From positions 1 to 14,922 of the forward strand of contig JAKDKP010000005.1 in assembly GCA_030453285.1 (NCBI GenBank): DNA of 14,922 nucleotides, in the 5' to 3' direction. The stretch comes from Propionibacteriales bacterium (GTDB lineage: Bacteria > Actinomycetota > Actinomycetes > Propionibacteriales > Propionibacteriaceae). This document shows, piece after piece, positions 2,084 through 8,764 of the stretch (positions are counted from its first letter, which is position 1; the number at the start of each line of letters is the position of its first letter). The notes below the pieces were generated by a model that worked only from the letters and a program-made list of their open reading frames with translations, made no database searches and was not told the DNA's origin. The position numbers and the translations under genes are program-made.

Positions 2084-2725
2084 TCAGTCAGACGGCTCGG
2101 GCCGGCCCGTCAGGTCGGCCAACGCCGATCGGAAGGACATCGGCGTGCAGCCGGCGGCCAGGGCACGTGCCCGTACGCCGGGTTCGGCTCGCCACAGGGC
2201 CAGACCACGTCGTACGAGGACCCCGGGACGTTTACGCCCCTCCCGCAGATCCCGAACCAATCGGAGCACCAGTGACAGCGTGCGCGGCCGGTCCAACCAG
2301 ATCGCGGTCACCGGCAGTCCCGCGTCGCGGCAGCGCTCGAACATCTGCGGAGCAAAGATGCCCTCGGCCACGATCACCCCTGAACAACCAGGCGCACGGG
2401 AGCGACCAGGGCCACCAACGTCGTCAAGATCAACAGTGCGGGATCCGGTCCGGGCATTGGCGGCGATGCTGTACACCGGCACCTCGGCCCGCCCGGTGGC
2501 GAGCAGCTCGGACAAGGTGGCGACCGCACCATCGGCATCCCAACTGGCGATGTCGTCCCAGTCGACGATTCCCAACGTCTGCGGCAGATCCGGATGGTCA
2601 CCGTCGCGATAGAAGTCGTCGAGACTGACTGAGGGACAACCCGACATCCGGACCAGCCGGGACTTCCCGCTGCCGGACGCCCCGGCCAGCAGGACGAGCC
2701 GTCGAGTGGGCGGGGACGCCCCCAT
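2084..2725 (-). CDS. Uridine-kinase-like P-loop ATP-binding protein
   Basis: About 213 residues. A Walker A motif GASGSGKS sits about 15 residues from the chosen start. SLDDFYRDGDHPDLP follows, resembling the uridine kinase substrate region (D-x-FY), then VDWDDIASWD in the place of the NFDHPDAFD-type segment, and a hydrophobic strand VIVAEGIFA as in the uridine/phosphoribulokinase group. These features suggest a kinase for a nucleoside or similar small molecule. The PVYSIAANARTG segment is shorter and different from the classical P-Y-D-x-x-x-H-x-R region, so the substrate may not be uridine. ATG 2725 is preferred because it gives the family-typical distance to Walker A and starts 16 bases after the stop of the short ALDH. 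GTG at 2758 would overlap that gene by 17 bases. Its position in a nucleoside catabolic block makes a nucleoside or pentose substrate reasonable, but this is inference. Confidence 0.85.
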   Translation of the reverse strand: MGASPPTRRLVLLAGASGSGKSRLVRMSGCPSVSLDDFYRDGDHPDLPQTLGIVDWDDIASWDADGAVATLSELLATGRAEVPVYSIAANARTGSRTVDLDDVGGPGRSRAPGCSGVIVAEGIFAPQMFERCRDAGLPVTAIWLDRPRTLSLVLRLVRDLREGRKRPGVLVRRGLALWRAEPGVRARALAAGCTPMSFRSALADLTGRPEPSD

Positions 2726-2741
2726 CAGTTGGTGCCGTCCA

Positions 2742-3626
2742 TCAGTAGGCAGTGCCACCCGCGAGCGACACCGCGCCCACCGGATGCCAGACCGTCTTGA
2801 TCTCCAGGAAGGCGCGCAGGCGTGCCGTCCCCGGGGCAGCGGTGAAGTCCAGGCTGGTCGGGAAGAACACCCGCTTCAACGTCTGCGAGGCAGCCTGTTC
2901 CAGGGCGACACGCAGTTCTTGATCGGCGCCGGTCAGGTCGAGGGCGTTCACGTCCAGATGCTCCGCCAGCCACGGCGCGGTTTCCGCCGGCTCGCCGGTG
3001 AGGATGTTGATCACGCCACCGGGGACATCGGAGGTGGCCACGATCTCGGCCAAGGTGATCGCCACGCACGGGTCGTCCTTGGCCGCCAGCACCACGACCG
3101 CATTGCCGCCGGCGATCGCCGGGGCGATGCAGGACACCAACCCCAGCAGGGGAGCGTCGCTGGGAGCGACGACGCCGACCACACCGGTCGGCTCCGGCGC
3201 GGAGTAGGAGAAGAACGGGCCCGAGACCGGGTTCGCCCCGCCGAACACTGCGGCCAGCTTGTCGGTCCAGCCGGCGTAGTGCACGAGTCGGTCCACTGCC
3301 GCTGAGACCTCGTCCTTGGCCACCCGCGCCGTCACCCCACGGGAGGTCTTGATCAACTCCGCCATGTCGGCGGCGCGCGCCTCAAGCATCTCGGCGATCC
3401 GATAGATCACCTGGCCGCGGTTGTACGGCGTCGTGCCCGACCAGGCCTGGTAGCCCTTGCGGGCAGCGCCGACCGCATCACGCAGATCCTTGCGGGAAGC
3501 CAGTGCAGCGTTGGCCATGAAGTTCCCTCCTTGATCGGTCACCGCGTACGTCCGGCCGGACTCCGAGCGCGGAAACGTGCCACCCGAGAACAGCTTGTAC
3601 GTCTTGCTCACCGTCACGCGTGCCAT
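2742..3626 (-). CDS. Short, catalytically dead aldehyde dehydrogenase-like protein (ALDH16 second-domain type)
   Basis: 294 residues against about 480 for normal ALDHs. Residues about 10-260 follow the ALDH N-terminal NAD-binding fold (for example YNRGQVIYRIAEMLEARA, then EPTGVVGVVAPSDAPLLGLV), but the key residues are gone. The P-W-N-F segment with the oxyanion Asn is SDAP (156-159), the K-P-A-E cofactor Lys is replaced around LAAKDD (180-185), FTGS is DLTGAD (230-235), and the whole catalytic domain with the Glu and Cys is absent. The C-terminus jumps straight to RLRAFLEIKTVWHPVG (269-284), which matches the ALDH C-terminal oligomerisation strand (E-x-K-T-V). It starts on the last base of the upstream ALDH stop (TGATG), so the two are probably made together. 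The frame is intact with good codon use, so this is not decay. A structural or regulatory partner role is inferred. Confidence 0.9.
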   Translation of the reverse strand: MARVTVSKTYKLFSGGTFPRSESGRTYAVTDQGGNFMANAALASRKDLRDAVGAARKGYQAWSGTTPYNRGQVIYRIAEMLEARAADMAELIKTSRGVTARVAKDEVSAAVDRLVHYAGWTDKLAAVFGGANPVSGPFFSYSAPEPTGVVGVVAPSDAPLLGLVSCIAPAIAGGNAVVVLAAKDDPCVAITLAEIVATSDVPGGVINILTGEPAETAPWLAEHLDVNALDLTGADQELRVALEQAASQTLKRVFFPTSLDFTAAPGTARLRAFLEIKTVWHPVGAVSLAGGTAY

Positions 3627-5071
3627 CAGTTGCCTCCCTCATCGGCGGTCAAATAGGCCGCCATGCCCGACGGGCCGCCCTCGCGACCGAAGCCGGACTC
3701 CTTGTAGCCACCGAACGCCGCAGCCGGGTCGAAGCGGTTGAACGTGTTGTCCCACACCACACCGGCACGCAGTTGGCTGGCGATCCCCATCGCCCGGGAT
3801 CCCTTGTCGGTCCACACCCCCGCGCTCAACCCGTACGGGCTGTTGTTGGCCTTGGCCACGGCCTCGTCAGGCGTACGGAAGGTCATCGTGGTCAGCACCG
3901 GGCCGAAGATCTCCTCACGGGCGATCCGCATCGAGGCGGTCGCGTTCTCCATGATCGTGGGAGGAATGAACCAGCCCTGCTCGGGCAGCGGGCAGGAGGT
4001 GCTCCACACCGATGCGCCTTCGGCGGCGCCGGCCTCGATCAGCGAGTTGATCTTGGTGTACTGCGCGTGTGAGTTGATCGCCCCGACGTCGGTGTTCTTG
4101 TCCATCGGATCGCCCACCACCAAGGTGTCGACGCGCGTCTTCAGTCGATCGATGAACTCCTCGGCGATCGACTCCTGCACCAACAGCCGAGAGCCCGCAC
4201 AGCAGACCTGGCCCTGGTTGAAGAAGATGCCGTTCACGATGCCTTCGACCGCTTGGTCCACCGCGGCATCGTCGAAGACGATGTTGGCGCCCTTGCCGCC
4301 CAGCTCGAGGGTGACCTTGCGGCCCGTCCCAGCCAGAGTGTGCTGGATCTTGCGGCCCACCGCGGTCGACCCGGTGAAGGCGACCTTGTCCAGCCCATCG
4401 TGGCCGACCAGGGCGGCACCGATGTCGCCGGCGCCGGGAACGATGTTGACCACGCCGGGTGGAAGGTCGGCGTCGGCGATGATCTCGGCCAGCACCAGGA
4501 TCGACAGTGGCGTCGTCTCGGCCGGCTTGATCACCACGGTGTTGCCGGCGGCCAGGGCCGGGGCGATCTTCCAGGCCGCCATCAGCAGCGGGAAGTTCCA
4601 CGGGATGACCTGGCCGGCGACGCCGAGCGAACGCGGGTTGGCACCCAGACCCAGATGACCGAGCTTGTCGGCCCAACCGGCGTGATAGAAGAAGTGCTGC
4701 GCCGCGGTCGGCACGTCGAAGTCGCGGGTCTCCTTGATCGGCTTGCCGTTGTCGAGGGTCTCCACCACGGCAAGCTCACGGGCCCGTTCGGCCATCCCGC
4801 GGGCGATCCGGAACAGATACTTGCCGCGTTCGGCACCTGACATCGGTGACCACGTACGGCTGTGCGCCCGGCGGGCGGCGGCGATCGCGCGGTCAAGATC
4901 GGTCGTGTCCACCGTCGACACCGTCGACAGCTTCTTGCCGGTGGCCGGGTTGAGGGTGGTCAGGTCGTCCCCGCCACCCTCGACGAACTCACCGTCGATG
5001 AAGGGCAGGTAGCGATCGGCCACCTGTCCGATGGCGGCCGACTCGGGTGCCGGTGCGTACTCGAAATCCAT
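3626..5071 (-). CDS. NAD(P)-dependent aldehyde dehydrogenase, deoC-linked
   Basis: 481 residues with a complete ALDH active site: PWNF with Asn159, IKPAE with Lys182, FTGSTAVGRKI (232-242), general base Glu256 in VTLELGGK, nucleophile Cys290 in NQGQVCCAGSR, and EEIFGPV (386-392). It would oxidise an aldehyde to the acid with NAD(P)+. Lying 19 bp after deoC, its likely substrate is the acetaldehyde released by DeoC. The protein ends GFGREGGPSGMAAYLTADEG and lacks the E-x-K-T-V strand that normally follows. That strand is found instead at the end of the next gene, with which it shares a TGATG overlap. ATG 5071 is chosen because GGAGAG (5083-5078) lies 6 bases upstream; a TTG two codons earlier sits right against that site. 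A cytoplasmic soluble enzyme is expected. Confidence 0.95.
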   Translation of the reverse strand: MDFEYAPAPESAAIGQVADRYLPFIDGEFVEGGGDDLTTLNPATGKKLSTVSTVDTTDLDRAIAAARRAHSRTWSPMSGAERGKYLFRIARGMAERARELAVVETLDNGKPIKETRDFDVPTAAQHFFYHAGWADKLGHLGLGANPRSLGVAGQVIPWNFPLLMAAWKIAPALAAGNTVVIKPAETTPLSILVLAEIIADADLPPGVVNIVPGAGDIGAALVGHDGLDKVAFTGSTAVGRKIQHTLAGTGRKVTLELGGKGANIVFDDAAVDQAVEGIVNGIFFNQGQVCCAGSRLLVQESIAEEFIDRLKTRVDTLVVGDPMDKNTDVGAINSHAQYTKINSLIEAGAAEGASVWSTSCPLPEQGWFIPPTIMENATASMRIAREEIFGPVLTTMTFRTPDEAVAKANNSPYGLSAGVWTDKGSRAMGIASQLRAGVVWDNTFNRFDPAAAFGGYKESGFGREGGPSGMAAYLTADEGGN

Positions 5072-5090
5072 GATCAACTCTCCGTGGGCT

Positions 5091-6080
5091 TCAGTCGACG
5101 GTCACATAGTCGGGACCCCAGTAGTGGCCCGAGGTCTGTGTACGCCGTTGCATGATCAGATCGTTCAGCACCGAGGAGGCACCGAACCGGAACCAGTACG
5201 GGTCAAGCCATTCGGGACCGGCGATCTCCTTGACCGCCACCAGATAGCGGATCGCGTCCTTGGTGGTACGGATGCCGCCAGCCGGCTTCACCGCCCGCTG
5301 TTCGCCGGTGATCCGCTGCCAGTCCTTCACCGCCTGCAGCATCACGTGCGTCACCGGCAGCGTCGCGGCCGGGGAGATCTTGCCGGTGGAGGTCTTGATG
5401 AAGTCGCCGCCGGCCAGCAGTGCCAGCCACGAGGCGCGCCGGACGTTGTCGTACGTAGCCAGTTCGCCGGTCTCCAGGATCACCTTGAGCCGCGCCGATC
5501 CGCAGACTTCCTTGATCGCCCGGATCTCGTCGTACACCTGGCCATAGTTGCCCTGCAGGAAGGCCCCTCGGTCGATCACCATGTCGACCTCATTCACGCC
5601 GGCCTCGACCGCCATCGCGGTGTCGGCCAACTTCACCTCCAACGAGGAACGGCCGGCGGGGAACGCGGTCGCCACCGCGGCCACCTTCACACCGCTGCCG
5701 GCAACCGTGTCGACGGCCAGGGCGGCCTTGTCGGGATAGATGCACACCGCGGCGGCGGTGGGGGTGTCGGGAATCTCCGGATCGGGCAGCATCGCCTTGC
5801 GGCACAGGTTGCGCACCTTGCCGTCGGTGTCGGCGCCCTCCAGTGTGGTCAGGTCGACCATCGAGATCGCCAGGTCGATCGCGGCCAGCTTGCTGGCCTT
5901 CTTGATCGACCGGGAGGCCAGACCCGCGGCCCGCTGTTCGACGCCGACGGTGTCCACCGGGGACAACCCGTGCAGGAACCGCTTCAGCGACGTCTCATCG
6001 ACGGTCGCATCGGCCAAGGCGGCGGGGGGACCGGCCTGCGCCGGCGTCCGACCAGGGGCCGTGCTGCTCTTCTTCGCCAT
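5091..6080 (-). CDS. deoC: Deoxyribose-phosphate aldolase
   Basis: 329 residues. DeoC cleaves 2-deoxyribose-5-phosphate to glyceraldehyde-3-phosphate and acetaldehyde through a Schiff base. Landmarks are EVDMVID with Asp166, DFIKTSTGK with the Schiff-base Lys229, and the second Lys265 in KPAGGIRT; these correspond to Asp102, Lys167 and Lys201 of the E. coli enzyme. The protein belongs to the longer DERA type (E. coli has about 259 residues), with an N-terminal stretch including AISMVDLTTLEGAD and an extra C-terminal tail ending GPDYVTVD. The frame stays open 26 codons upstream, but ATG 6080 is favoured. TAGGAT just upstream provides either an AGGA ribosome binding site at 8 bases or a -10 element for a leaderless message. 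The following ALDH starts 19 bp after the stop. Confidence 0.96.
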   Translation of the reverse strand: MAKKSSTAPGRTPAQAGPPAALADATVDETSLKRFLHGLSPVDTVGVEQRAAGLASRSIKKASKLAAIDLAISMVDLTTLEGADTDGKVRNLCRKAMLPDPEIPDTPTAAAVCIYPDKAALAVDTVAGSGVKVAAVATAFPAGRSSLEVKLADTAMAVEAGVNEVDMVIDRGAFLQGNYGQVYDEIRAIKEVCGSARLKVILETGELATYDNVRRASWLALLAGGDFIKTSTGKISPAATLPVTHVMLQAVKDWQRITGEQRAVKPAGGIRTTKDAIRYLVAVKEIAGPEWLDPYWFRFGASSVLNDLIMQRRTQTSGHYWGPDYVTVD

Positions 6081-6087
6081 GCGGGCG

Positions 6088-6093
6088 ATCCTA
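6088..6093 (-). promoter_or_regulatory. Candidate -10 element of a leaderless deoC promoter
   Basis: On the minus strand TAGGAT ends 7 bases before the deoC ATG. This fits the TAnnnT-N7-ATG layout of leaderless actinobacterial genes. No good -35 is visible, and the same bases could serve as an AGGA ribosome binding site, so the two readings compete. It follows a 168-bp gap, the largest in the minus-strand block, which supports an internal promoter here. Confidence 0.35.
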
Positions 6094-6164
6094 CGGGGCC
6101 TCGTCGTTCGTGGCGACGTCGAGACCTGGAGCTTGGCCTCGCCCAACTCCAGCCACACGCGAAA

Positions 6165-6248: not shown

Positions 6249-7937
6249 TCACAGCCCGAGCGCCTGCTGCATCTCCGCCTTGAGGGTGGCCAGCGTCTCG
6301 TTCGCCTTTGCGCGGTCGGCGGCCAGGTCTCGGTCGACACCACGGCGTACCTCGAGATAGCACTTCAATTTGGGCTCGGTGCCCGACGGGCGGACCACCA
6401 CCGAGAAGCAGTCACCGGACAGCCAGACGCCGTCGGTGGGCGGCAGATCGTCGGAGCCTTCGGCCAGGTCGACCACCGCCACCTGGGAGCCCAGCAACTC
6501 CTTCGGTGGCTGGTTCCGGATTCGATCCATCGCTGCGGTGATCAGTGACAGGTCCTCGACCCGGACCGCCAGTTGATCAGTGGCGTGGATGCCGTACTCG
6601 CGGTCGATGTCATCCAGCCGGTCGGCCAAGGTGCGACCGGCCGACTTTTCCGCCGCCGCCAACTCGAGCACCCGCAGGGCGGCGGAGATGCCGTCCTTGT
6701 CGGCCACCGCGGCCGGATCACAGCAGTAGCCCAGGGCTTCTTCGTACCCGAAGGCCAGGCCCTCGACGCGGCCGATCCACTTGAACCCGGTCAGGGTCGT
6801 CACGTACGGCTGGCCGTGCGCCGCGGCCATCTCCGACAACAACGACGACGAGACCACCGAGGCGGCATAGACGCCACGTTCCTTGCGGCGCAGGGCAGCA
6901 TCGCCCAGCAGCGCCCCCACCTGATCACCGCGCAGCATCGCCCACTCACCGTTGCGACGGATCGCCACCGCACATCGGTCGGCGTCGGGATCATTGGCGA
7001 TCACCACGTCGGCGTCGTGTTCGGCGGCCGTGGCCAGGGCGGCATCGATCGCGCCCGGCTCCTCGGGGTTGGGGAAGTCGACGGTGGGGAATTCGGGGTC
7101 GGGTTCGCGTTGGGCCGCGACACTGATCGGGGCACTGAACCCGGCGGCCAGGGCTGCCTGTTCCATCACCGGCGCCCCCACTCCGTGCAGGGCGGTGTGC
7201 ACCCAACGCACCTCACGAGGGCCGTCGGACAGGGCTGCCGCGGTGCGGGCGACGTAGGCGTCGACCAGGTCCTGGCCGACCATGATCACGTCACTGCTGC
7301 GGGCGATGTCGGCCAGTGGTCGAGCCGCCACCCGGGCGATCTGCGCGGCGATCTCGGCATCGGCTGGCGGCACGATCTGGCTGCCGTCGTCGAGATAGAC
7401 CTTGTAGCCGTTGTCCGCCGGCGGATTGTGCGAGGCGGTGACCACCACGCCGGCTACACATTCCAGCTTCTTGATCACGTACGGGACCAGCGGCGTGGGC
7501 AGGTGCTGGTCGAACAACAGCGCCTCGAAGCCCGCCCCGGCCATGATCTCGGCAGTGTCGCGAGCAAAGATCTCGGAGTTGTGCCGCGCATCCCAGCCGA
7601 TGATCACTCGTCCGCGCCCGGCGGGACGTCCATCCTGTTGATCATGGTGAGCCGAAGGGGCGGTGGCCAGCAGGTGCGCGGCCAGACCGGCGGCGGCCTG
7701 ACTCACGACGACCCGATTCATCCGGTTGGGGCCGGGGCCCAGCTTGCCGCGCAGCCCGGCCGTGCCGAACTGCAGCCGCCCAGCGAACGCGTCGGTCAGC
7801 TCGGTGGCAGCCGCCGGGTCTGTCTCGGCGGCGGTGATCAAGGATTCCAGTTCGGTACGGGTGGCCGGATCAGGGTCCTCGCTCGCCCAGACGCGAGCGC
7901 GCGCCAGCAGTGCGTCATCGACTCCGGGTGCGCTCAT
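6249..7937 (-). CDS. Phospho-sugar mutase (alpha-D-phosphohexomutase family), probable phosphopentomutase role
   Basis: 562 residues, the size of the PGM2/PgcA-type subgroup of the alpha-D-phosphohexomutase superfamily. Signature sites are an N-terminal FGTAGLRGKLGPGPNRMN (57-74), phosphoserine loop VVTASHNPPADNGYKVY with Ser169, metal loop NDPDADR (315-321), sugar loop GYEEALGY (398-405 region) after GFKWIG, and phosphate-binding RPSGTEPK (516-523). All catalytic elements are present. The M. tuberculosis gene next to its PNP is named pmmB, but a phosphomannomutase role does not explain the context. Between PNP and DeoC, conversion of (deoxy)ribose-1-phosphate to the 5-phosphate is expected, as done by human PGM2. 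ATG 7937 shares its A with the PNP stop (TGATG). The frame is open 149 codons further upstream, but that part lies inside the PNP gene and is not coding in this frame. Confidence 0.94.
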   Translation of the reverse strand: MSAPGVDDALLARARVWASEDPDPATRTELESLITAAETDPAAATELTDAFAGRLQFGTAGLRGKLGPGPNRMNRVVVSQAAAGLAAHLLATAPSAHHDQQDGRPAGRGRVIIGWDARHNSEIFARDTAEIMAGAGFEALLFDQHLPTPLVPYVIKKLECVAGVVVTASHNPPADNGYKVYLDDGSQIVPPADAEIAAQIARVAARPLADIARSSDVIMVGQDLVDAYVARTAAALSDGPREVRWVHTALHGVGAPVMEQAALAAGFSAPISVAAQREPDPEFPTVDFPNPEEPGAIDAALATAAEHDADVVIANDPDADRCAVAIRRNGEWAMLRGDQVGALLGDAALRRKERGVYAASVVSSSLLSEMAAAHGQPYVTTLTGFKWIGRVEGLAFGYEEALGYCCDPAAVADKDGISAALRVLELAAAEKSAGRTLADRLDDIDREYGIHATDQLAVRVEDLSLITAAMDRIRNQPPKELLGSQVAVVDLAEGSDDLPPTDGVWLSGDCFSVVVRPSGTEPKLKCYLEVRRGVDRDLAADRAKANETLATLKAEMQQALGL

Positions 7938-8764
7938 CACAGCGCCCCGGCCAGTCCGGACAGGAGCGTGCGCAGTCGGGGGGCGGCGGCACGGCCGGCC
8001 TCGATGACCTCCTCGTGGTGCAGCGGGGTCGGGCTGATCCCGGCGGCGAGGTTGGTGACCAGGGAGATGCCGAGCACCTCCATGCCGGCCTCGCGGGCGG
8101 CGATCGTCTCCAAGGTGGTCGACATGCCCACCAGGTCGGCACCCAACACCTGGGCCATCCGCACCTCGGCGGGCGTCTCGTACTGCGGCCCCCGGAACTG
8201 CGCGTACACCCCTTCGGGCAGATCGGCCGACACCGTACGAGCCAACTCGCGAAGCCGTAGAGCGTAGGCCTCGGTGAGATCGATGAAGGTGGCCCCGGCC
8301 AACGGGGAGGCACCGGTCAGATTCAGATGGTCGGCGATCAGCACCGGGGTCCCTGGAGTCCAGTCGGGGTTGAGCCCGCCGCACCCGTTGGTGAGCACCA
8401 GCACCCCGGCCCCGGCAGCAGCGGCCGTGCGCACGCCATGCACGACCGCCTCGACGCCGCGGCCCTCATAGAAGTGCGTCCGGCCGGTGAAGATCGCCGC
8501 CAGCTTGCCGTTGCCGGTGCGCACCACCCGGAGGGCACCACCGTGCCCGGCGACCACCGGAGCGGAGAAGCCGGGCAACTCGGCCAACTCGCAACGGCCG
8601 ATCTCGTCGCCGAGGTCGTCGGCCGCGGCGGACCAGCCCGATCCCAGCACGAACGCGAGGTCGAGGCCGTCAATCGAGAAGCGCTCCCTGATGGCGTCGG
8701 CCGCCGCCTGGGCCTGCTCGGTGGGGCTCGGGGCGGCGTCGGTGGTGTCGGTGTCGGTGCTCAC
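7937..8764 (-). CDS. Purine nucleoside phosphorylase, trimeric class
   Basis: 275 residues, the length of the trimeric (mammalian/M. tuberculosis) PNP class rather than the hexameric E. coli DeoD. It phosphorolyses purine (deoxy)nucleosides to the base and (deoxy)ribose-1-phosphate. Visible sites are the phosphate-binding loop VLGSGW with Ser42, GHGG with His74, GRTHFYEG (94-101), VLTNGCGGLN (122-132), the base-binding FRGPQYETPAEVRM with Glu196, GMSTTLE (213-219), and VTNLAAG with Asn238. The Glu/Asn pair is the one that selects 6-oxopurines in this class. The first 20 residues are a low-complexity T/D/A-rich tail. The start is GTG 8764 without a ribosome binding site, but with a -10-like TAGACT 6 bases upstream, so the message may be leaderless. 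It heads the PNP-mutase-deoC-ALDH series. Literature names are punA or deoD; I leave the symbol open. Confidence 0.95.
   Translation of the reverse strand: MSTDTDTTDAAPSPTEQAQAAADAIRERFSIDGLDLAFVLGSGWSAAADDLGDEIGRCELAELPGFSAPVVAGHGGALRVVRTGNGKLAAIFTGRTHFYEGRGVEAVVHGVRTAAAAGAGVLVLTNGCGGLNPDWTPGTPVLIADHLNLTGASPLAGATFIDLTEAYALRLRELARTVSADLPEGVYAQFRGPQYETPAEVRMAQVLGADLVGMSTTLETIAAREAGMEVLGISLVTNLAAGISPTPLHHEEVIEAGRAAAPRLRTLLSGLAGAL

Follow-up and report, generated by a model that had tools for sequence, protein, structure and literature searches.

A two-gene variant of the aldehyde dehydrogenase ALDH16 behind deoC in a Propionibacteriales genome

Results

An overlapping gene pair behind deoC

The 14,922-nucleotide (nt) stretch of contig JAKDKP010000005.1 from a Propionibacteriales bacterium (assembly GCA_030453285.1), hereafter the window, carries on its minus strand two overlapping genes related to aldehyde dehydrogenases (ALDHs) that lie directly behind deoC, the gene for deoxyribose-phosphate aldolase. 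Genes were called from open reading frames (ORFs) and from matches to Pfam and NCBIfam profiles, and all positions are those of the window, with every feature described here on the minus strand. Read along that strand, the gene order is purine-nucleoside phosphorylase, phosphosugar mutase, deoC, an ALDH of 481 amino acids (the long protein), an ALDH-like protein of 294 amino acids (the short protein) and a gene distantly like uridine kinase. The long gene (3626..5071), which encodes the predicted catalytic subunit, starts with ATG; starting instead at the in-frame TTG at 5077, two codons earlier, would give 483 amino acids. It is separated by 19 nt (5072-5090) from deoC upstream (5091..6158). 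The short gene (2742..3626) also starts with ATG and overlaps the long gene in a TGATG stop-start sequence (3624..3628), with one base common to both genes. An earlier note, made from the letters of this DNA, had described a complete 481-residue ALDH and a 294-residue ALDH-like protein without a catalytic domain, overlapping by TGATG and amounting to 775 amino acids in sum, and the ORF calls and Pfam matches confirm that description.

The Pfam family PF00171 matches the long protein over residues 30-475 (527 bits) and the short protein over residues 28-254, corresponding to profile positions 10-233 of 461 (144 bits). The long protein contains Cys290 (codon 4202..4204, motif GQVCCAGS), which we take to be the counterpart of the catalytic Cys302 of ALDH2, and Glu256 (codon 4304..4306, motif LELGGK), presumably the counterpart of Glu268. 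The short protein resembles an NAD-binding domain; it lacks a catalytic domain as well as the PWNFP and KPAE motifs that are standard in ALDHs. In a joint alignment, the part bounded by the (H/Y)AGW..DK and GQVIPWNF columns, which presumably holds the oligomerisation hairpin of classical ALDHs, is referred to here as the hairpin region; it is shortened to 23 residues in the long protein (4616..4684) and kept at full length in the short protein (34 residues, 3177..3278), where FSYSAPEP, gone from the long protein of the window, stands at the site of FTYTLREP in ordinary ALDHs. The short protein also has a C-terminal segment, FLEIKTVWHPVG (2775..2810), that resembles the terminal strand in which ordinary ALDHs often end (such as EMKTVWLN); this segment was not found in the long protein.

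Searched against solved structures with phmmer, the long protein matches 6mvr best (residues 11-475, E 3e-154; next protein, 6e-125) and the short protein matches 6mvu best (residues 500-767, E 4e-63), with 6mvr second and 1o9j as the best other chain (E 2e-32). The entries 6mvr and 6mvu hold one protein of 767 amino acids, the first part of which matches the long protein and the last part the short protein, and the short protein also matches the N-terminal (N) half of this chain with 63 bits. We take these entries, together with 6mvs and 6mvt, to be the ALDH16 of Loktanella, which the PDB search names only 'Aldehyde dehydrogenase'. The codes do not appear in the available passages of PMC8160307, where the ALDH16 of Loktanella sp. 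is presented as the archetype of the family, an active ALDH followed by an NAD-domain-like domain that mimics the partner subunit. Among the best 25 of 44 NCBIfam matches of the long protein and the best 25 of 36 of the short protein, none was above its cut-off and none was an ALDH16 model; the best of those listed for the long protein were non-acylating families.

Compared with the features that define ALDH16, the long protein is an active-type ALDH domain that resembles ALDH16 more than it does other ALDHs. The short protein represents a second, shortened domain orthologous to the ALDH16 C-terminal domain, with the predicted protruding flap of that domain (34-residue hairpin region) and no catalytic domain (the Pfam match ends at 233 of 461). 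The single polypeptide of ALDH16 is divided into two overlapping frames in the window, and into two frames likewise in 115 complete split pairs. In sequence terms, the pair is a two-gene variant of ALDH16, outside the family if this is taken strictly as single-chain proteins.

Phylogeny of the two halves

In total, 204 loci or stretches were examined, of which 186 held complete pairs (115 split into two genes, 71 fused in one) and 18 were dropped for want of a complete N or C-terminal (C) half; an N half was counted as adjacent when it lay within 900 bases and scored >300 bits. Trees were built from 64 of the 186 rows (23 fused, 41 split). In the N-half tree, all 64 ALDH16 rows stand apart from 14 ordinary ALDHs (Shimodaira-Hasegawa-like approximate likelihood ratio test, SH-aLRT, 100), and the fused rows (100) and the split rows (99) each occupy one side of a branch, a separation that holds although four phyla contain both forms. 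The C-half tree, in which the NAD domains of ordinary ALDHs and of N halves served as the outgroup, supports the C clade with 100, the fused rows with 99 and the split rows with 92 (100/100, 100/99 and 96/92, respectively, in a more careful tree of 45 rows). The proposal of the earlier note that the pair is a two-gene equivalent of ALDH16 is supported by this placement, in which the short protein branches with ALDH16 C-terminal domains and not within an unrelated ALDH group, and by the single PDB protein that both proteins match best. A second ALDH unrelated to ALDH16 had been considered as the identity of the short protein and is ruled out by the ALDH16 structure match together with the C-half tree.

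The root falls between the fused and the two-gene forms in both the N- and C-half trees. Because the two forms are sister groups, a single fusion or fission separates them in this sample, and transfer between phyla probably followed that event. Three genomes of genus g14, from another family of the window's order (L006, L007 and L008), encode short proteins 68-70% identical to that of the window, while those of other g14 genomes share 56-58% identity with it, a contrast that hints at transfer. The L251 locus, which goes with these three genomes, groups with the window in the N-half tree, where the nearest named relatives of the window are Actinomycetota.

Distribution of the split and fused forms

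Homologues of the short protein were found in 90 of 147 genomes of the window's order (E < 1e-90) and in 71 of 296 genomes of its phylum, the Actinomycetota (E < 1e-70). Wider stretches around 65 of these 71 contained 61 adjacent pairs and one locus with the long gene further off, and the other three, all short stretches, showed no long gene; the fused form occurred at none of the 65. Profile scans of other phyla (E up to 1e-60) were positive in 15 of 100 genomes of the Fidelibacterota (1 fused, 14 split), 24 of 112 of the Myxococcota (1 fused, 23 split), 8 of 149 of the Acidobacteriota (2 fused, 6 split), 30 of 240 of the Verrucomicrobiota (3 fused, 15 split, 12 without the long gene in the near flank) and 27 of 299 of the Pseudomonadota, all 27 of which were fused. 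Across the six phyla scanned, the two-gene form is present in five, four of which have both forms.

A search of plasmid proteins returned fused, single-chain relatives from Sinorhizobium (794 amino acids) and Agrobacterium (798 amino acids), each encoded directly after deoC. Among the best 80 loci of named genomes, 70 are fused, eight have the halves in separate frames and two, both at contig ends, show no N half within the stretch. Of the eight, seven are two-gene pairs (six from Actinomycetota, one from Fidelibacterota, also called Neomarinimicrobiota), and the other (L089) resembles a fused gene broken between the halves. Named actinomycetes with the pair include Herbidospora cretacea (L120), Nonomuraea and Saccharopolyspora spinosa. 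Frame breaks were seen in two relatives of fused ALDH16, between the halves in L089 (3227-5834) and inside the N half in L090 (3451-5837), which are either broken genes or assembly errors. At least three acidobacterial loci have a further, ordinary ALDH gene directly after ALDH16 (L100, 6015-7532; L101, 4948-6597; L089, 5984-7555).

Complementary losses in the two proteins

The differences in anatomy seen in the window recur across the collection. The hairpin region, which spans 27-37 residues in ordinary ALDHs (median, 32; n = 25), has 21-24 residues in 113 of 115 long proteins (23 in 106 of them) and 21 in 70 of 71 fused N halves, as against 34 in all 115 short proteins and 31 in all 71 fused C halves, the typical lengths being 23 (two-gene) and 21 (fused) residues for the catalytic half and 34 and 31, respectively, for the other. 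The tail after the GRE motif has a median of 14 residues in long proteins (11-61, n = 115) and of 20 in ordinary ALDHs (17-40; 19 of 25 have the motif). A terminal-strand matrix, derived from the C-termini of 185 short or fused proteins in place of a cruder K-T-V pattern, scored highest on the terminal strand itself in 11 of 25 ordinary ALDHs; in none of the 115 long proteins did its best site fall at the C-terminus. The motif K-[TNHS]-x-[WFY]-x-P is found near the end of 104 of 115 short proteins, with a near variant in the other 11, and of all 71 fused proteins. All 115 long proteins and all 71 fused proteins have the catalytic motifs with Cys, Glu and Asn.

Because long proteins have a short hairpin and no terminal strand and short proteins keep both, the losses are, at the level of predicted proteins, complementary, with the docking parts retained by the partner that has no catalytic domain and dropped by the catalytic partner. 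This reciprocal loss of oligomerisation elements argues for a constitutive heteromer. Five myxobacterial short proteins (L226-L230; L343-L347 in the wider stretches) are very divergent, with C scores of 207-216 bits compared with 300-450 for most, and end in an EVKTVWMS-like sequence and not in KTVWHP.

Linkage to deoC

A deoC gene on the same strand is present in the stretches of 185 of the 186 complete pairs (115 of 115 split, 70 of 71 fused). Within the Actinomycetota, the pair directly follows deoC in 52 of 65 loci, nine more have deoC farther upstream on the same strand, and the remaining four have only 24 to 876 bases of upstream sequence. Likewise, deoC is immediately upstream in all 11 Fidelibacterota loci examined (10 split and 1 fused, from 15 matches), all 17 split loci examined in the Myxococcota (of 24 matches) and all three split loci among the four Acidobacteriota matches examined (of 8). 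In the best 80 named-genome loci, deoC is immediately upstream in 75, and the four without any deoC have <900 bases upstream. Eight of 20 Verrucomicrobiota loci (from 30 matches) share the order deoC, long gene, a gap of 1.4-2.2 kb and short gene; the gap gene is a POT-family transporter, perhaps a nucleoside importer, in two of these loci (L232, 2594-3943; L235, 4853-6196).

The deoC ORF of the window encodes 355 amino acids and was identified by profiles and structure matches. Its match to solved DeoC begins at ORF residue 93, which gives an N-terminal extension of ~92 residues, and the Sinorhizobium DeoC beside the fused ALDH16 matches from residue 64 (~63-residue extension). Part of the extension in the window may be the product of a wrong start, and extended DeoC may go with ALDH16.

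Co-occurrence, selection and coupling of the two genes

Of the 296 genomes of the window's phylum, 68 have both halves, three the short protein only, one the long protein only and 224 neither. The long gene was sought in nine genomes, namely the four with one half, three Verrucomicrobiota (G714, G785 and G763), G442 and G656. Contig ends truncate the long gene in G412, where it adjoins the short gene, in G442 and in G281, which is the long-only genome. Of seven genomes with a half missing or distant, five are explained by a truncating contig end or by a partner located elsewhere. The short gene of G714 stands beside a gene of the metalloenzyme superfamily and one for pyrimidine nucleoside phosphorylase, still a nucleoside context.

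Taking as the start codon the candidate nearest the upstream stop, a choice that favours overlaps, 54 of 115 split pairs have a 1- or 4-nt stop/start overlap and 18 are >60 nt apart. Compared with three relatives, the proportions of nonsynonymous (pN) and synonymous (pS) differences were 0.17-0.23 and 0.50-0.55 for the short gene of the window and 0.14-0.16 and ~0.43 for the long gene; because pN is well below pS, neither gene is in decay. The recurrence of the short protein in 90 of 147 genomes of the order likewise speaks against a chance or decaying reading frame. Distance matrices of the 115 split loci give a long-short correlation of 0.83, or 0.67 when controlling for deoC (bootstrap, 0.59-0.72), and partial correlations of 0.26 between short protein and DeoC and 0.33 between long protein and DeoC. 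As evidence of coupling, these correlations are only suggestive.

Other genes of the window

Upstream of deoC lie a phosphosugar mutase ORF (6249..8384) and a purine-nucleoside phosphorylase gene (7937..8764; TIGR01698, 328 bits, cut-off 303). The mutase ORF overlaps the phosphorylase gene by >400 bases, and because its Pfam domains begin at ORF residue 204, the true start of the mutase lies well inside the ORF. Downstream, an ORF for a kinase distantly like uridine kinase (2084..2758) overlaps the end of the short gene; its TIGR00235 score of 34 bits is far under the 220-bit cut-off, and it has no Pfam match. A relative of this kinase was found by phmmer in 10 of 69 stretches from the same phylum, many of which extend only 2.5 kb downstream. 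Deoxynucleosides are split into base and deoxyribose 1-phosphate, which is converted to deoxyribose 5-phosphate and from there to glyceraldehyde 3-phosphate and acetaldehyde, and the genes on the minus strand of the window look like a cluster for this pathway. The DeoC step that yields acetaldehyde is stated in PMC6365646, the available passages of which give this route and name no ALDH16 partner.

Discussion

In an ordinary ALDH dimer, the hairpin and terminal strand of each subunit dock on the catalytic domain of its partner. The best explanation for the orthology of both halves, their complementary losses, the catalytic motifs of the long protein, the linkage to deoC and the co-occurrence of the two genes is, and we consider it likely, an obligate long2-short2 enzyme, a two-gene ALDH16 that oxidises the acetaldehyde produced by DeoC; the physical complex, its stoichiometry, its substrate and its cofactor are what we infer from those observations. 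The long protein would supply the NAD-binding and catalytic domains with a full catalytic set, a shortened hairpin and no C-terminal strand, while the short protein would be a former ALDH that has lost its catalytic domain and kept the hairpin and terminal strand, which it would dock on the catalytic domain of the long protein. The long protein would need no hairpin or strand of its own because its short partner offers no catalytic domain for them to dock on. Two of these heterodimers would come together in the manner of the Loktanella ALDH16 dimer, which mimics an ALDH tetramer, and the complex would convert the acetaldehyde released by DeoC from deoxyribose 5-phosphate to acetate with NAD+.

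Several observations weigh against parts of this explanation. Two of the 115 long proteins have hairpin regions of 28 and 32 residues and one fused N half has one of 30. The strand matrix picks another site 55-57 residues from the end in four of 25 ordinary ALDHs and sites elsewhere in 10, and the crude K-T-V pattern matches three of 115 long tails and only eight of 19 tails of ordinary ALDHs. When the short protein of the window was forced to group with ordinary NAD domains, the loss of 18 log-likelihood units was borderline in an approximately unbiased (AU) test (p-AU 0.048), although clade support is strong. Three Verrucomicrobiota have the long gene apart from the short gene, on another contig (G714) or at a distance of ~24 kb (G785) or ~5.6 kb (G763), and because of them coupled translation is not universal. 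No ALDH16-type long protein was found in G357 (360 contigs) or G432 (280 contigs, 61% complete), both of which have the short protein. G656 has a reading frame of the fused type (L250, ~2517-3705, minus strand) that joins the C half to no more than the last ~90 residues of an N half, with no full N half in the 2 kb further upstream or elsewhere at E 1e-100; the locus represents either a lone C domain or an assembly fault. The contrast in distance correlations is absent from 70 fused loci, where the correlation between halves given deoC is 0.48 and that between C half and DeoC 0.47. As to the substrate, the earlier note had suggested acetaldehyde from the position behind deoC; the link to deoC in both the two-gene and the fused forms strengthens this guess, while acetaldehyde itself is still read only from gene order.

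The separation of the genes in some genomes would also fit a long protein that forms a homo-oligomer by itself, with the short protein as an independent regulator, chaperone or scaffold of ALDH descent, and the available passages of PMC8160307 and PMC10650815 describe human ALDH16A1 as a pseudoenzyme and proposed binding protein. Such an arrangement is unlikely given the short hairpin in 113 of 115 long proteins and the terminal strand found in none of the 115, the union of the same halves in one chain in the fused form, and the near-perfect co-occurrence of the two halves. An assembly of DeoC with both proteins in one complex that channels acetaldehyde would extend the long2-short2 explanation and not oppose it. 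Aldolase-dehydrogenase channelling complexes such as DmpFG exist and provide a precedent, deoC is the constant neighbour of fused and split forms, and N-terminal extensions occur on DeoC in the window (~92 residues) and in Sinorhizobium (~63 residues); the distance correlation with DeoC at split loci is weaker than that between the halves and a misplaced start may account for part of the window extension, and we regard such a complex as improbable, if conceivable. An origin of the short gene by recent tandem duplication and truncation of the long gene, or as the decaying or frameshifted remnant of a fused gene, might be suggested by the homology of the halves (63 bits between the short protein and the ALDH16 N half) and by the apparently broken fused gene of L089. 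The trees, which group the short protein with ALDH16 C-terminal domains and not with its own long neighbour, effectively refute either origin, as does purifying selection, with pN well below pS; with the hairpin length also conserved in 115 of 115 short proteins, we give both almost no credence.

Of the known systems, bacterial ALDH16 members bind NAD and oxidise aldehydes. The Loktanella enzyme has the same order of parts as the window pair, an N-half hairpin region that is shortened too (21 residues in the crystal chain) and the same C-terminal motif (EVKTIWVPYG versus EIKTVWHPVG). The fused ALDH16 genes of this survey also follow deoC; unlike them, the window form consists of two genes and two chains and falls in a sister clade of its own in each tree. 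Classical ALDHs (ALDH1, ALDH2, betaine and phenylacetaldehyde dehydrogenases) have the same catalytic motifs as the long protein and belong to its Pfam family, but each of their subunits has its own hairpin and terminal strand with no dead partner, and the 14 included in the N-half tree are set apart there. Acylating acetaldehyde dehydrogenases, of the DmpFG type and in microcompartments, are alike in being the partner of an acetaldehyde-releasing aldolase, but they have no general-base Glu268, whereas the long protein keeps the general-base Glu (Glu256 of LELGGK in the window, with the motif in all 115 long proteins). Human ALDH16A1, compared here by description only, belongs to the same family by name and description and is catalytically dead according to the available passages of PMC8160307 and PMC10650815, and a table in the latter, a 2023 review, lists its substrate and oligomeric state as unknown.

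The ALDH16 family is known, and its two-gene architecture, the wide occurrence of that architecture and the link to deoC are new as far as found: none was found described in searches of an open-licence library, although the main ALDH16 structure paper may mention either the two-gene form or the deoC link. A broader and doubtful proposal is that all ALDH16 enzymes, fused or two-gene, serve as a dedicated acetaldehyde-oxidising partner of DeoC in the breakdown of deoxynucleosides, possibly in a channelling complex with it; the two-gene form would then preserve the state that preceded one ancient fusion, and animal ALDH16A1 would have come down from this DNA-sugar pathway as a dead relic.

The pair offers a case of an enzyme dimer with reciprocally degenerated halves, each of which would have shed only what the other makes needless. 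In the two-gene form, the extra domain can be added or omitted without cutting a chain, which makes its role directly testable. The constant deoC neighbour assigns a pathway to the bacterial ALDH16 family, and the adjacency of both forms to deoC suggests a role for this poorly understood family.

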